Assembly (NCBI GenBank): GCA_020444325.1
Contig: JAHLLD010000012.1
Coordinates: 1 to 64,000, forward strand
Length of the DNA: 64,000 nt
Direction: 5' to 3'
Source: a bacterium
GTDB lineage: Bacteria; Bacteroidota; Ignavibacteria; SZUA-365
Shown here: positions 14,973-61,973 of the stretch, piece by piece
How positions within the stretch are numbered: position 1 is the first letter of the stretch
Layout: every line of letters begins with the position of its first letter
The notes under the pieces: generated by a model
What the model was told of the DNA's origin: nothing
Seen by the model: only the letters and a program-made list of their open reading frames with translations
Databases searched by the model: none
Translations under genes and position numbers: made by a program

Positions 14973-15326
14973 GAGCGAAAAGAAGGTCTGTTTTTCAATG
15001 TGGAAAACCGTCGCAGCGCAAAGGACAGACAACGACGGCAGCGGCGTGCCATTCCGGCGTGCTGGCTCAGTTCTTCACGCGGGCCGGATCAGGCACGTGC
15101 GCAAACTATAAAAGCCCTGCGCAATAAGCAACGCATGCGGCCGCAGGTGCTCCCCGTCATGGAATGCGGTGCGACACGCAGTGCGGCACTGAGACGGATG
15201 TGCGGCACTGAGACAGACGTGCGGCACTGAGACGGACTTGCGGCACTGATGGGGATTTGTGATATTCCTCTACGGGAGCTTTTCATCCTGGAGAAATACC
15301 ACACCATCGTCTGACGGAGAACACAC
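14973..15326. other. 354-bp intergenic region between divergent genes
   Basis: No convincing gene on either strand. It separates the lipoprotein (minus) from the dihydroorotate dehydrogenase-like gene (plus) and must hold both promoters, which I could not place. Its notable content is the 19-bp tandem repeat at 15181-15254. Confidence 0.6.
15181..15254. repeat. 19-bp tandem repeat, about 3.8 copies
   Basis: Units start at 15181, 15200, 15219 and 15238, each built on TGCGGCACTGAGAC with one or two changes; the last is truncated. It lies about 75 nt upstream of the next start codon, so it may overlap the promoter or the 5' leader. Confidence 0.9.
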
Positions 15327-32977: not shown

Positions 32978-35017
32978 CTAGCGTAAGTTGAGGACGCCAC
33001 GGACGGTCTGTTGTTCTCCGAACGTCAAGACAATCAGGTATTCTCCGGGTGACAACTGAGGGAGATCTACCTGGTGCAGATAGCTTCCAGCAGTCAGATA
33101 TGCCTCAAGAAGCGTATGGACCAATCTCCCCTGTGCATCGAGCAGCTGCAGCCGCACCTGTCCGTCATGCGGAACAGTATACGAAATCGATGTTTTCCCA
33201 TTGAACGGATTCGGGAAATTCGCGAGGTTCAGCTCCGGCTCCCTTCGCCGTAGCAATGGCCTGCAGATTCCGTCGATGATGACAACAGGCTGCTCGACCG
33301 AACTCCTGATCGCACAATTACTCTGAATATCGCTGAAACTCAAAGTGAGCGGGATGAATTGCACGTCTTTTGTGCCCACAGCACTGTAGCGAAGAATGAA
33401 CAGCACGCTGTCCGCATTCCCCGATCCTGTCAGACGGGCCGTAACCTCGAGTCGTCCATCATTCGGCTGCAGCAGCAGATCACCGTCCTCGAGCATCGTC
33501 CCCGCTGTCATCACATCTTCAAAAATCAACGAAGGCGATGGATCAAGTATCTCCATCCCGAGCTCGTAATACTGTCCATCTTCCGGAACCGGCGACAGAT
33601 AGACGGGAATCTCCACGATATCACCGTCAGAAACGAGAACGGTGTCGGAGGAAAGCAGGAATTGCTCTTCGCAGGCTCGGATTTCGAGGCTGCTTCCTTC
33701 CATGGAAACTATCATCGGACAGAGTGCGAACAGCTTCCCATCCACGATTTCCATTCGGGTTTGCACATCGTCCGATCGACTGTAGGTGGAGAACATTACC
33801 TGGAGCAGCGTCCCTGAAGAAAAGGCCGGTACGAAATTATTCAGAGCAATCCGCAGTTCTCCCGGAATCACTTCCGTCACCTGCACATTGCCGCCCGCTG
33901 ACATCGTCCCAACGGTGGAAATATGCAGAAACTGCATAAGCGAAGCATCGTAATTGATTGTCAACGCATAGGATAGCGGCTGCGTAATCGAGAGACGCTC
34001 GAAGATGTTGACTGGAACGGCCACACTGTCTTTCGCGACGACTCCGGCAACCGGACCCAGTCTCAACGTCGCAGGAATAAGTTTGTTCTCAACATTGTAA
34101 AAGGTATCCGCCTCCCCGACGAATCCGAGTCCGGCAAGCGTCAGGTTCACGTTACGCAGGCTGCCGTCGAGGCAGGGGTTGGAGGAAGTGTAGCGGAGAA
34201 CGCAGTCGTCCGTCAGCAATTCAGCGCCGAGCTGAAGAAAAATGTCCTTCAATTCGCTGGCAGTGGGACTGGGCATGTAGCGTCCCCCTGTAGCACTGGC
34301 GAGCGAACGGAGCGATCCTTCATCGATGTCCTCACCCAGGGCGATCGGATATACCGGGATGTTCTCCGTCTGTGCCTTCCTGATGACATCGCTGAGATCA
34401 TTCGTCGTACTTCTGTCTCTGCCATCGGTGAGGACGATGAGAACGCGGCGTCCAGCCCGGGACTTGAGCTGATCCAGGGCGTCCACAATGGCGTCCCATA
34501 AAAACGTTCTGCCCTCGGCATAAATCGGGTACAGGCTCGCCTTCAGCGAAGCGATATCCGAACTGAAATCATGGTCCACGATGAAGCGGTGCACCCTGTT
34601 TCCCGCGGTCGCACTGAATCCATAAATGGCGGCCTCATCTCTTGATGTCAGGAGATCAAGAAACACTTCGACCGCCGCGGTCGCTTCCTTGATCTTGACA
34701 CTGTCAACGATATTGGCAGCATTTCGCAGCATGCTGTTGGACCGGTCGACGAGTATTGCCACGGAGAGCCGAATACTGCTGTCTTCGGGACAGTCAAACG
34801 CTTCAACGATCTGGGGAATGCCGTTTTCTTCCAGGTAGGCATTATTGACCGTGGGTTTACTGCTGTTCGATGTCGCACGCTGCAGCTTGACAGCGAGCAC
34901 GACCGTCGGAAACTGGGAAATGTCGATATCCGTAATATCCACCCCATTCCCCACCTGCGCAGAAAGCTGACTGCAAAACAGTACTGCGCCCAGCAGCACT
35001 GTACATGCAAAACGCAT
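32978..35017 (-). CDS. T9SS-secreted VWA protein, distal tandem copy (679 aa)
   Basis: A 679-residue exported protein with signal peptide (FACTVLLGAVLFCSQLSAQ). The VWA domain has a DxSxS MIDAS written DRSNS (91-95), plus LIVLTDGRDRS and FLWDAIVDALDQL. Cohesin-like segments follow (DSVAVPVNIFERLSITQPL; GDIVEIPVYLSPVPED), then the linker DGICRPLLRRREPE and a T9SS tail (LANFPNPFNGKTSISY ... GEYLIVLTFG ... VLNLR). It starts 3 nt after the end of a homologous gene and was probably produced by tandem duplication. Likely surface adhesin; ligand unknown. Confidence 0.87.
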   Translation of the reverse strand: MRFACTVLLGAVLFCSQLSAQVGNGVDITDIDISQFPTVVLAVKLQRATSNSSKPTVNNAYLEENGIPQIVEAFDCPEDSSIRLSVAILVDRSNSMLRNAANIVDSVKIKEATAAVEVFLDLLTSRDEAAIYGFSATAGNRVHRFIVDHDFSSDIASLKASLYPIYAEGRTFLWDAIVDALDQLKSRAGRRVLIVLTDGRDRSTTNDLSDVIRKAQTENIPVYPIALGEDIDEGSLRSLASATGGRYMPSPTASELKDIFLQLGAELLTDDCVLRYTSSNPCLDGSLRNVNLTLAGLGFVGEADTFYNVENKLIPATLRLGPVAGVVAKDSVAVPVNIFERLSITQPLSYALTINYDASLMQFLHISTVGTMSAGGNVQVTEVIPGELRIALNNFVPAFSSGTLLQVMFSTYSRSDDVQTRMEIVDGKLFALCPMIVSMEGSSLEIRACEEQFLLSSDTVLVSDGDIVEIPVYLSPVPEDGQYYELGMEILDPSPSLIFEDVMTAGTMLEDGDLLLQPNDGRLEVTARLTGSGNADSVLFILRYSAVGTKDVQFIPLTLSFSDIQSNCAIRSSVEQPVVIIDGICRPLLRRREPELNLANFPNPFNGKTSISYTVPHDGQVRLQLLDAQGRLVHTLLEAYLTAGSYLHQVDLPQLSPGEYLIVLTFGEQQTVRGVLNLR

Positions 35018-54513: not shown

Positions 54514-54960
54514 ACGAGCCTCCATTGGGGTTAAAGCTAAAGACTATCGTTAACGCTTGTGTGTCTCAGTATTTATGGAGCCGGCGTGCTCAACGCCGGG
54601 TTTTGGCCGTCAATCAGTGAGCGAAGCTCAGATCTGAGCGCAGGCTCAGTTTCGTCTTGTAGACACAGATTCGTGGAATGCGTTACGAAATCACGACCGC
54701 CGGCCGTGATGTCGGAGAAATTCCTTGCGGAACTGCACAGGGACGCGCGCCTGTGGTGGGATAATGCGAGAAGGAAGTCAGTCGCCAAGTCCGCTATCAA
54801 AACCTGTCTTGATTACGAGAACGACATGGGCAAAGCCCGAAATGCAACCGGAACTGCACCCGGTTTCCATCGCACGCAGGGTCGGCCAGGACCCTCTGCG
54901 ATGTCATGACAATATCAGCTTTTACTATCGGATATCCAAGCCTTGAGCTCGCTTCGCTCG

Positions 54961-55052
54961 CGGTGTTGCTCACCTGCGGTTCGCGGTGTTGCTCACCTGC
55001 GGTTCGCGGTGTTGCTCACCTGCGGCTCGCGGTGTTGCTCACCTGCGGCTCG
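54961..55052. repeat. 23-bp tandem repeat x4 upstream of cstA
   Basis: Four units (54961, 54984, 55007, 55030) of CGGTGTTGCTCACCTGCGG plus TTCG or CTCG, almost identical, with no spacers. Confidence 0.95.
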
Positions 55053-55064
55053 CGATAGTCCAAC

Positions 55065-58544: not shown

Positions 58545-59474
58545 TCAGCGTTTTTTCCCTGCGGCATAGCGGCTGAGCCTGCCGTGTTTTTTCCCTTCAT
58601 CGCTGATGAGCATGTCGCCATCCGGCAGAAAGGTCAGTCCTTCCGGCTGTTCATGCAGATCTGCATCGAGCCGTCCGGCTGCCACCATCTTTCCGTTCGC
58701 ATCGACCTCGATGAGCAGATGTCCCTGCGAGGCAAGGATGAAAAAATGTCCCGTGCCTGCTTGCCGTTCAATGGCCGAGGGACGCATTTCCTTCCCCTTC
58801 GCGATATCCTTGAAATCCCTTTCATCGAGTACGAAGCGCGGCTTGTCGCGCAGCCTGTGCGAACGCAGGTCGAAACTGTAGACTGCACGGTCATGCTTCC
58901 CATAGCCGTTCCCCGCATCACCCTTGCAGGCCAGAAGCAGCGAAGAGGTCGCAGGGTCATAGCAGAGTCCTTCCACATCACTGCGTTTGTCGAGCGGCGT
59001 CCTGTGCACACGATACGCCACGCGTCCCGCATCCTTCCCTTCCCTGAACTGATACAGGTCACCGTTGCTGGTCACGAGGTAGAAGTATTCGCCTGCAATG
59101 GCGAGACCCTCAAAATCCTCCGTCACCACCGTCCTTCCCAGCAGAAAATAATCCAAGATGCTCCCGGTCATCGGGTCGATGCGATAGACAACGCCCCGTT
59201 CGTCGTCATGCGCGAACACGCGGCCCCTGTCATCCGATGCCAGACCTGAAATCTCCTTCAGGTGTTTGGCGAGCTTCATCACATGCGGTTTATCGCCGAA
59301 ATCATATCCTCCCGGAGCTCGCTTCGGCTGCGCGTCGCACGCTGCAACGAGGAACAGGACGCCGATTATGCAGAATGTGCATATTCCCCGCCGCAGCGAT
59401 ATGCAGAAACTGCATATTCTCGCGGGCAGGTTTATGCAGAAACTGCATAATGTGCGTTGTGCGGGAGGCTTCAT
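58545..59474 (-). CDS. YjiK/SdiA-regulated-like beta-propeller lipoprotein
   Basis: A 309-residue lipoprotein. The start at 59474 is preferred over an ATG two codons earlier because AGGA then lies at the right distance. The N-terminus is unusual: an 11-residue unit (CSFCINLPARI, CSFCISLRRGI, CTFCII...) precedes the hydrophobic stretch and lipobox LVAAC. The mature part is a propeller of the SdiA-regulated/YjiK or phytase-like type (EISGLASDDRGRVFAHDD; DFEGLAIAGEYFYLVTSNGD; DVEGLCYDPATSSLLLACKG; QPEGLTFLPDGDMLISDEG). Function unknown; possibly a phosphoester or ligand-binding propeller. It is convergent with the ArsA operon, 2 nt apart. Confidence 0.82.
   Translation of the reverse strand: MKPPAQRTLCSFCINLPARICSFCISLRRGICTFCIIGVLFLVAACDAQPKRAPGGYDFGDKPHVMKLAKHLKEISGLASDDRGRVFAHDDERGVVYRIDPMTGSILDYFLLGRTVVTEDFEGLAIAGEYFYLVTSNGDLYQFREGKDAGRVAYRVHRTPLDKRSDVEGLCYDPATSSLLLACKGDAGNGYGKHDRAVYSFDLRSHRLRDKPRFVLDERDFKDIAKGKEMRPSAIERQAGTGHFFILASQGHLLIEVDANGKMVAAGRLDADLHEQPEGLTFLPDGDMLISDEGKKHGRLSRYAAGKKR
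59367..59449. repeat. 17-bp palindrome repeated three times with exact 33-bp period
   Basis: TATGCAGAAACTGCATA occurs at 59400-59416 and 59433-59449, with a variant (TATGCAGAATGTGCATA) at 59367-59383. The period is 33 bp (11 codons), in frame in the YjiK-like lipoprotein signal region. Arms of 7 bp surround a 3-nt centre. Confidence 0.93.
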
Positions 59475-59680
59475 GATCATTCCTCAAATGTGGCGAATCC
59501 AGGGATAGCGTACAGAAAAGACTGTGCGACGGGAACCGCAGGGCGAATTCCGCGCATCACATGGAGAGATTCCTGTCCGGGTTCTTGAATTTATCAAAAA
59601 ATCTCGCTAGCATAAACTTCCCGGATATCAGAACTTCAACCCCCACTATCCCCTAATGCATTATTTGTGAGGATTCTGTT

Positions 59681-60661
59681 ATGTCTCAAACCGTTCACGT
59701 AGCCGTAACCGGCGCCGCCGGCGCCATTGGTTATGCCATCCTCCCTCGCATCGCTTCCGGACAGATGTTCGGTCCCGACACCAAGGTAGCACTGCACCTG
59801 CTGGAACTGCCGCAGGCCATGGGCGCGCTGGAAGGCGTTGTCATGGAACTCAACGACTGCGCATTCCCCCTGCTCGAGAGCATCAGCATCGCCGACAATC
59901 CCGATGTCGCCTTTGACGGCGTCAACTGGGCCCTGATGATCGGTTCCAAGCCCCGCACGAAGGGCATGGAACGTAACGATCTTATCAAGGACAACGGACC
60001 GATTTTTGTCGGCCAGGGCAAAGCACTGCTCAAAGCCGCCAGCGACGTACGCGCCGTGGTTGTCGGGAATCCCTGCAACACGAACGCGCTCATCGCCATG
60101 AACAATGCGCAGGACCTTCCGAAGGACCGTTTCTCCGCGATGACGCGTCTCGATCAGAACCGCGCCATGGCGCAGCTGGCCACCAAGGCCGGTGTCGGTG
60201 TCAGCGCCGTGACCAACGTCACCATCTGGGGCAACCACTCCGCCACCCAGTATCCCGATGCCGCCAATGCGAAGATCAACGGTCAGCCCGTGTTCGACGT
60301 GATCAGCGACCATGAGTGGCTGAAGGGCGACATGATCACGAAGGTGCAGAAACGCGGCGCAGAGATCATCAACGCACGCGGCAGCTCCTCCGCGTTCAGC
60401 GCTGCGAACGCCGCCATCGACCACGTCGTCAGCCTCATCAATCCCACGCCCGCCGGCAACTGGTACTCCGCGGCCATCCCGAGCGACGGCAGTTACGGCA
60501 TCGATGAAGGACTCATGTTCTCCTTCCCGCTCGTCACCGGCGCCGATGGCAAGTACAGCATCGTGCAGGATATCCCGCACGACGACTTCGCAAAGGAGAA
60601 GATCCAGAAAACGCTCGACGAACTGAAAATGGAACGCGAAGTGGTCAAAGACCTCCTCTGA
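59681..60661 (+). CDS. mdh: Malate dehydrogenase (cytoplasmic-type, NAD-dependent)
   Basis: A 326-residue malate dehydrogenase, interconverting malate and oxaloacetate in the TCA cycle. NAD-binding motif [19 protein letters not shown]; mobile-loop [36 protein letters not shown]; and the catalytic [11 protein letters not shown]. Sequence style and length match the cytoplasmic/type 2 MDH group (as in Thermus or plant cytosol) rather than the LDH-like MDH common in many Bacteroidota. GAGG lies before the ATG. Monocistronic with its own terminator. Confidence 0.95.
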
Positions 60662-60731: not shown

Positions 60732-60865
60732 AATCGATTTCGACTTCGATGATCGATTTCGATTTCGATTTCGATTTCGATTTCGATTTCGATTTCGATT
60801 TCGATTTCGATGATCGATTTCGATTTCGACTTCGATTTCGATTTCGATTTCGAAATCGATTTCGT
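60732..60865. repeat. Hexanucleotide microsatellite (TTTCGA)n
   Basis: About 130 bp made almost entirely of TTTCGA units, with a few CTTCGA or TGATCGA interruptions, between the mdh terminator and the 3' end of mnmA. It does not enter either gene. Confidence 0.96.
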
Positions 60866-60869
60866 ATTC

Positions 60870-61973
60870 CTATTCGAGTATTTCGGTGATGACGCCGCCG
60901 CCTACGACGTCGTCTGCCTCATAAAAGACAGCGGATTGTCCGCGAGTGATGGCGGTTTTGGGTTGGTCGAAGGTAATGACGAGAGATCCGTCGGACTGTG
61001 GCTCGAGCGCGGCGGGCGCTGGCGTATCACGGTAGCGGATTTTCGCGTCGACGCGGAGGGGTTCGGTGGGATAAGCGTATTTCTGCATGGTGATGTCGCG
61101 CACACGAAATCTGCGGTGCTGCAGATCGGCTTTACGGCCAACGATAATGGTGTTGTCACCGGATTGGATTTCCGTCACGTACACGGGCTCTCCGACGGCG
61201 ACATTCAGTCCGCGCCGCTGTCCGATGGTGTAAAACGGATATCCGTCATGCTCCCCGATTTTACGTCCTTCGAACATGACATCGCCACCCTTGAGGCGTT
61301 CGTCGATACCCGGGACGTTATCCCGCAGGAAGCGTCCGTAATCGTCGTCAGGGATGAAGCAGATTTCGTAGCTCTCCTGCTTCGAAGCCGTTCGCACTCC
61401 CATACGTTCGGCAATGGCGCGCGCTTCTTCCTTGCTGATATCCGAGAGTGGGAAGATGCTGCGCGCGAGGCTTTCCTGTGAGAGCCCCCAGAGCGCGTAC
61501 GACTGATCTTTTCTCCCATCGCCGCCACGGGAAATCCAGTAGCGTCCGCTCGCCTCGTCGTGGGAAAGTCGTGCGTAATGTCCCATTGCGACACTGTCCG
61601 CACCGATCGTGAGTCCCTTGCGAATCAGTTCCTCCCACTTGATTTTGCGATTACAGATCACGCAGGGATTCGGTGTGTTGCCGGCCATGTATTCGTCGAT
61701 GAACATGTCGATGACATTCTGACGGAACGGCTGACTGAAATCGAGTACGTAATGCGGGATACCGAGATCCGCGCAGACGACACGCGCGTCGTTGATGCCG
61801 TCAAGCGAGCAGCAGCTCTTGTCGTTCGCGGCGTTGCCGCCCACATCTTCGTAATTGTATGTCTTGATGGTGATGCCGATTACTTCGTAACCCTGCTCCA
61901 CGAGCAGCGCGGCTGCGACACTGCTGTCAACGCCGCCGGACATGCCCACCACCACACGTTTTCTGTCTGTCAC
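60870..61973 (-). CDS. mnmA: tRNA-specific 2-thiouridylase MnmA
   Basis: A 367-residue enzyme that thiolates U34 of tRNA-Lys, -Glu and -Gln using ATP and a sulfur relay. The start is taken as GTG at 61973 because AAAGGA lies 7 nt upstream and the protein then begins, as usual for the family, a few residues before the PP-loop VVVGMSGGVDSS; ATG at 61994 is the alternative. Other motifs: NTPNPCVICNRKIKW with the first catalytic Cys, GHYARL, GRKDQSYALWGL, KQESYEICFIPDDDY with the second catalytic Cys, and the C-terminal beta-domain (YTIGQRRGLNV). Complete and of normal length. Confidence 0.96.
   Translation of the reverse strand: MTDRKRVVVGMSGGVDSSVAAALLVEQGYEVIGITIKTYNYEDVGGNAANDKSCCSLDGINDARVVCADLGIPHYVLDFSQPFRQNVIDMFIDEYMAGNTPNPCVICNRKIKWEELIRKGLTIGADSVAMGHYARLSHDEASGRYWISRGGDGRKDQSYALWGLSQESLARSIFPLSDISKEEARAIAERMGVRTASKQESYEICFIPDDDYGRFLRDNVPGIDERLKGGDVMFEGRKIGEHDGYPFYTIGQRRGLNVAVGEPVYVTEIQSGDNTIIVGRKADLQHRRFRVRDITMQKYAYPTEPLRVDAKIRYRDTPAPAALEPQSDGSLVITFDQPKTAITRGQSAVFYEADDVVGGGVITEILE

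Follow-up and report, generated by a model that had tools for sequence, protein, structure and literature searches.

The leader of a putative lipoprotein gene contains three palindromes repeated every 33 bp, which are part of a set of several hundred near-perfect copies that is dispersed through the genome of one bacterial species and nearly confined to that species among its relatives. We give about an even chance to the reading that this array is one of some 300 dispersed putative sites of a dimeric, DNA-bending protein, which would bind in phase with the helix and have a genome-wide role. The window (the whole stretch of DNA analysed, 64,000 nt) comes from a genome, G000, of 4,646,367 bases in 25 contigs, all of which were scanned. 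Its relevant features are as follows.

33921/33922-33938: solitary palindrome copy, in the called gene 32978-34999(-); ungapped against the sister genome G001
58545-59480, minus strand: putative lipoprotein gene, 311 aa, with the array within its leader
59337-59351, minus strand: LVAAC, residues 44-48, read by eye from the translation as the presumed lipobox
59367-59383, no strand: palindrome copy 1, TATGCAGAATGTGCATA, imperfect, with one arm mismatch and 6-bp arms
59384-59399, no strand: spacer 1, 16 bp
59400-59416, no strand: palindrome copy 2, TATGCAGAAACTGCATA
59417-59432, no strand: spacer 2, 16 bp, with 8 of 16 positions as in spacer 1
59433-59449, no strand: palindrome copy 3, TATGCAGAAACTGCATA

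The start-to-start distances of the three palindromes are 33 and 33 bp, and in copies 2 and 3 a 3-bp centre is flanked by 7-bp arms that match perfectly. The first-pass annotation had described 17-bp palindromes at an exact 33-bp spacing; the positions and the spacing stand, and the description of copy 1 has to be amended for its arm mismatch. When up to 3 mismatches are allowed, the window contains 4 matches to TTATGCAGNNNCTGCATAA, whereas dinucleotide shuffles average 0.11 matches and never exceed 1. The array palindromes are in frame inside the ORF at 58545-59480(-), as expected from the earlier claim that they also code, within the lipoprotein leader. This ORF has ATG codons at 59480 and 59474 and, as read from the sequence, no in-frame ATG, GTG or TTG between 59474 and the lipobox, so that peptides starting downstream would require a non-standard start. 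The leader, MIMKPPAQRTLCSFCINLPARICSFCISLRRGICTFCIIGVLFLVAAC, is as strongly Cys-rich as had been noted, with 7 Cys in 48 residues, 6 of which precede the Cys of the lipobox. We take LVAAC to be the lipobox from its fit to the lipobox pattern; by eye, the leader has the form of a signal peptide with a terminal lipobox, and the sister proteins show LLLLAAPAC and LLLMVNGC. At 48 residues, against 24-25 in G002 and G001, the leader is about 24 codons longer than its counterparts, and the array is absent from the lipoprotein locus of the sister genomes compared. The match of the 311-aa product to PF06977 (SdiA-regulated) is marginal (E = 0.00011). Elsewhere in the window, a (TCGATT)n hexanucleotide tandem array at 60734-60877, downstream of a malate-dehydrogenase-like gene, is open as DFDFDF repeats, and further short tandem arrays with 19-45-bp units lie at 1-169, 2533-2607, 15181-15249 and 54956-55054.

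The palindromes of the window had been put forward as sites of which further copies should be sought in the genome, and such copies abound, contrary to the lack of other copies that would have told against the idea. The exact pattern TATGCA-N5-TGCATA occurs 315 times in the whole of G000 (reversed control, 1), and TATGCAGNNNCTGCATA has 384 matches with at most 2 mismatches (reversed control, 11) and 337 with at most 1 (control, 1). An 822-kb sample of G000 contains 37, 27 and 10 sites with 0, 1 and 2 mismatches, respectively, compared with 0, 0.08 and 1.45 for control palindromes; at three or more mismatches the ratio to the controls is at most 2.2, which is near background and hardly differs from that in G001. 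The feature is genuine and lies well outside chance expectation. It is also nearly confined to the species of the window: among same-genus genomes, TATGCA-N5-TGCATA is found 0 times in G001, G002 and G003 and once in G004, and TGCAGWWWCTGCA is found 188 times in G000, 14 times in G004, 9 times in G001 and 0-8 times in each of the remaining 194 of the 197 genomes of the class that were scanned. G004, which matches the MAG Zod_Metabat.348 with identity over 5,321 bases, has one small array, a perfect 33-bp triplicate of a variant site, and one 31-bp pair. The triplicate (L064:1261-1345) has identical spacers, unlike the arrays of G000.

Beyond these genomes, a plasmid collection contained no copies. 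In IMG/VR, 33 viral stretches (L254-L286) are nearly all variants of one conserved sequence with two palindromes 35 bp apart, of which 50 bases recur almost without change in most of the contigs; we judged these viral sequences to be unrelated. A search of open-licence PMC text for the palindrome sequence gave one unrelated match only, and topic searches gave comparison papers only. We place the G000 set among dispersed, putatively protein-binding palindromes; the open PMC text searched contained no account of it.

The spacing seen in the window recurs throughout the genome. A two-site pattern identified 86 adjacent site pairs 33 bp apart in G000, with none in the control. In the 822-kb sample, which is 18% of the genome, no cluster exceeds three sites: 40 are single, 5 are double and 5 are triple. 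Within this sample, all 15 neighbour spacings below 60 bp equal 33, and all pairs within 100 bp are separated by 33 (15 pairs) or 66 bp (5 pairs). A partly different set of 29 pairs has 27 at 33 bp, one at 34 and one at 39. Degenerate neighbours, with 2-5 mismatches, show no excess at multiples of 33 bp.

The sequences between the palindromes are unrelated. Neighbouring spacers in arrays agree at 4.07 of 14 positions, compared with 4.14 by random pairing, so tandem copying of the unit did not generate the arrays; in 8 triple arrays, spacer 1 and spacer 2 are alike at 7.4 of 16 positions, compared with 6.0 between arrays. Because neighbouring spacers are unalike, we reject tandem duplication of a 33-bp unit in general, although a few local duplications may have occurred. 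What the array spacers do share is composition, with AT at the edges and a GC content of 0.83-0.86 at the midpoint, compared with 0.50-0.59 at the corresponding positions beside single intergenic sites. AT in the middle of the palindrome combined with GC one and a half turns away is the pattern that would be expected of DNA bent round a protein. The proposal of the first-pass annotation that the copies form same-face arrays of dimer-type sites is borne out to the extent that the register is genome-wide and that unrelated spacers have a GC-rich midpoint in common. Unrelated 16-bp spacers of constant length between identical repeats are also CRISPR-like, but the likeness is superficial; 86 adjacent pairs among 315 copies imply more than 200 separate loci in G000.

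Sites occur both within and between genes. By midpoint, 27 of the 62 sites in the 822 kb lie in called genes (40.7 per Mb) and 35 lie between genes (220.8 per Mb). These placements depend on a home-made codon-usage caller, which called the lipoprotein gene of the window only from 59279 and thus counted its three sites as intergenic. The 24 intergenic sites in 562 kb are distributed over 9 divergent, 8 co-directional and 7 convergent gene pairs, and placement at promoters is therefore no explanation. Along 620 kb, the cluster positions fit a random spacing model (KS p = 0.33). Among 24 sites wholly in called genes, 11 are read in the YAxxAY frame, 13 in the MQxLH frame and none in the Cys frame, for which the chance is about 6 in 100,000 if the frames are equally likely. 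Since none of these gene-internal sites uses the Cys frame, the Cys-rich leader peptide appears to be a by-product of the DNA sites. The leader in the window is the exception, since there the residues that the sites encode are of use to a hydrophobic signal peptide. Two further three-site arrays lie in frame, one at L018:4483-4565 (AKYAERAY..DYAETAY.., within an adenylate-forming-enzyme-like linker) and one at G000:C1:572167-572249 (MQNMH..MQNVH..MQNVH); the 11-residue peptide repeats at these two places are shadows of the DNA array.

Comparison with the sister genome G001, with which contig C12 of G000 is collinear, indicates that most coding sites that can be compared arose in place. Eleven of the 24 coding sites are alignable, and 9 of these 11 are ungapped within three residues of the site, with G001 differing at 3-12 of the 12 motif bases. 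The two gapped cases involve a 25%-identical paralogue in one instance and a linker in the other. In the clearest in-place case (G000:C1:303097), about eight residues have been replaced at equal length between well-conserved flanks. Between genes the evidence is mixed, and arrays may have been inserted, as both longer gaps and the longer leader in the window would allow; this counts against the binding-site reading set out below. Site-bearing intergenic gaps are longer than those of the sister (median +101 versus -3 bp, n = 6 versus 193, p = 0.0097, with one at -1407), in a test with a small n and ascertainment bias, confounded by the tendency of longer gaps to hold more sites; pairwise alignments of four site-bearing gaps were too diverged to read.

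From the register and the composition of the arrays, we infer binding by a protein that acts as follows. One dimer of a helix-turn-helix-type protein would recognise AWTATGCAG-WWW-CTGCATAWT, and two or three sites placed 33 bp apart, which is three helical turns, would bring the dimers onto one face of the helix, where they would touch. Dimers in phase in this way would bend the DNA, or wrap it, over about 50-100 bp. A dimer on one face every three turns would explain the register, the unrelated spacers, their composition and the maximum of three sites seen in the sample. Because the sites are spread through coding DNA and through gaps of any gene orientation, the binder would act genome-wide, in a chromatin-like manner, and not as a switch of the lipoprotein gene. 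The array in the window would have fallen at the 5' end of that gene, and its Cys/Phe/Ile reading would be tolerated as part of a signal peptide.

The uptake sequences of Haemophilus (USS) and Neisseria (DUS) are precedents for another origin, which we consider rather unlikely, in which the palindrome would mark DNA favoured for uptake or recombination and copies would build up by mutation and biased exchange. As in those systems, G000 has hundreds of dispersed, near-identical copies in one species, in coding and intergenic DNA, that arise in place (9 of 11 alignable coding sites are gap-free), and over 620 kb its clusters fit random spacing. The G000 sites, however, are palindromic, and their fixed 33-bp tandem arrangement with unrelated spacers is foreign to the uptake model. 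In addition, the G000 motif is sharp, with nothing beyond 2 mismatches clearly above background, whereas the portion of PMC1939737 drawn on here describes known uptake sequences as non-palindromic, with an over-representation that declines gradually with mismatches.

It is less probable still that the copies are mobile palindromes of the REP or RPE type, small hairpin elements that a transposase would have multiplied and placed in genes as well as between them. REP/REPIN and RPE elements with RAYT are likewise short, dispersed palindromes, some of them in frame within genes, and such mobility would suit a burst specific to one species, the greater density between genes (convergent ones included) and site-bearing gaps that exceed those of the sister. 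Within 12 bp on either side, however, a GTAG tag accompanies 3 of 62 sites (random, 6.9%) and CGTC accompanies 15 of 62 (24%; random, 19.2%), which is no clear excess. G000 has one Y1_Tnp match, which is partial and lies in a 3.2-kb locus without sites, and its burst-free sisters have fuller ones. The G000 sites differ from REP/REPIN in being without a GTAG tag, a clear CGTC excess or a flanking RAYT and in not being mainly extragenic (27 of 62 are coding). Moreover, a 17-bp insertion would shift the reading frame, and most alignable coding copies are ungapped against the sister; nor would random insertion keep the 33-bp distance.

We attach very little probability to a local operator, in which the three sites would control the lipoprotein gene or else the gene divergent from it at 59681-60661, which is malate-dehydrogenase-like. 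The array does stand at the 5' end of the lipoprotein gene, and other taxa, among the matches listed, have single palindrome pairs 33-34 bp apart over promoter-like sequence. That the array is an operator peculiar to the lipoprotein gene is nevertheless unlikely, given 315 copies genome-wide, many of them in genes or between convergent genes, and sisters that are without the array at this locus. The earlier reading centred on the leader or on a local regulator does not survive this genome-wide distribution over coding and intergenic DNA, even between convergent genes. Hairpins working as RNA or DNA structures (terminators, stability elements or cruciforms) are the least credible explanation: a single copy folds at -7.9 kcal/mol and the array reaches z ~ -7 on both strands, but the two spacers of the 8 triples lack complementarity to each other (5.1 of 16 positions versus 6.4 between arrays), 28 spacers have no dyad excess, there is no Rfam family (one sub-threshold match, E = 3.1) and a 33-bp register across unrelated spacers is nothing that an RNA role would require. 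We therefore rejected a fold of the whole array as RNA or cruciform, to which, for all its z score, spacer complementarity lends no support; the fold follows from the palindromes.

Related arrangements occur in distant relatives. A two-site pattern with a 13-22-bp gap had matches in 6 of the 395 genomes of the phylum: 83 in G000, an unrelated simple repeat in G137, and 6, 2, 1 and 2 in four members of g195, a single distant genus. In the genome_contigs scan, many of the matches listed are in Rhodothermales MAGs, and L136, from one such MAG, is identical to a stretch of G424. In Rhodothermales, TATGCA-N5-TGCATA with an AT-rich centre forms pairs or fours at 31 bp or at 31-63-31, with a skipped place. 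These arrays lie between genes of all orientations and are kept at the same loci between species, and 19 of their 14-bp spacers have a GC content of 0.79-0.84 at the midpoint. Arrays of two to four units in a Rhodothermales genus are found in L098, L103, L130, L132, L136, L144, L148, L162, L184, L205 and L207; one beside ruvA exemplifies conservation between species.

In other taxa, the matches listed are promoter-like operator pairs or simple repeats. Single ATGCA-N5-TGCAT pairs 33-34 bp apart occur, among the matches listed, in Rhodobacterales and relatives and in Clostridia (records L097, L118, L135, L140, L156, L157, L198, L206; L102, L104, L105, L174, L177), several of them over TTGAC-like promoter boxes, and they look like paired operators of regulators. 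Those in Rhodobacterales and Lachnospiraceae share with G000 the ATGCA-N5-TGCAT pairs and the three-turn spacing, but they differ in that mostly one pair is present per record among the matches listed and several lie over promoter-like sequence. A LysR-type regulator was considered as the binder, a pair being located at the start of a LysR gene in L130 and L148, and was rejected, with no homologue in G000, G001 or G004.

For the family of the proposed dimeric binder, Lrp/AsnC (feast/famine) proteins are the best candidate class, a candidate by geometrical fit and not a result. Lrp-type sites are described, in the part of PMC2995911 used here, as 13-17-bp inverted repeats with an AT-rich centre, spaced by two or three turns on one face of the helix, and three Ss-LrpB dimers are described there as wrapping about 100 bp. 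The G000 site is a 17-bp palindrome with a WWW centre in most copies, and the spacing is 33 bp in G000 and 31 bp in Rhodothermales. The Ss-LrpB consensus, given as TTGCAAAATTTGCAA in an excerpt of PMC4046817, has the 13-mer TGCAAAATTTGCA in common with some Rhodothermales array sites, such as L144:4088. Ss-LrpB arrays are thus like those of G000 in repeat size, AT-rich centre, three-turn spacing and a limit of three adjacent sites; the known natural sites of Lrp/AsnC proteins, however, are said to be quite degenerate and to cluster where their targets lie, and those of G000 are near-perfect and number about 300 per genome.

G000 has one Lrp/AsnC gene, at L299:1450-1917 on the minus strand, adjoining glutamine synthetase (named by eye from the sequence), and lrp has this neighbour too in G003, in G004 and in those g195 genomes that were inspected. 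PF01037 is matched in 37 of 41 relatives, site-free genomes included, and such near-universal presence of Lrp explains nothing. The Lrp proteins of G003 and G004, where there are 0 and 1 sites, are 77-79% identical to that of G000 and have nearly the same recognition helix. No full site is present in the lrp promoter of G000, where the closest one is located about 1.1 kb upstream of lrp; in 3 of 4 g195 genomes (L293, L294 and L296), a degenerate but conserved TATGCA pair about 33 bp apart lies upstream of lrp. Nor would a chromosome-wide task be expected to go with the loss or gain of all sites within one genus. Bacteroidetes LexA, also considered as the binder, was rejected on its motifs: its sites are palindromic with a 5-bp spacer, as in G000, and come from the same broad bacterial group, but the non-canonical motifs listed in the portion of PMC8565304 consulted (GGA-N5-TCC and CTAA-N5-TTAG) differ.

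A broader reading, which we advance tentatively, is that a palindrome code for self-marking or chromosome organisation swept this species after its split from its sisters. In such a sweep, a new or respecified protein would have driven near-perfect sites in place, into conserved genes at unchanged length, with further sites added only in the 33-bp register, and wrapped units of two or three dimers would thus dot the chromosome. If this were so, a related 31-bp code would operate in Rhodothermales, and bacteria would have a dispersed-wrapping system whose sites turn over from one sister species to another. A species with several hundred near-perfect, helix-phased sites, in a genus with hardly any, raises the question of what fills a genome with one motif so fast, in part within conserved genes and gap-free. 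Given an exact register and unrelated spacers, the geometry of binding is open to direct test, and G001, as a collinear sister, provides a ready before-and-after comparison. For annotation, Cys-rich leaders and MQxLH or YAxxAY repeats in proteins can be the shadows of DNA sites.
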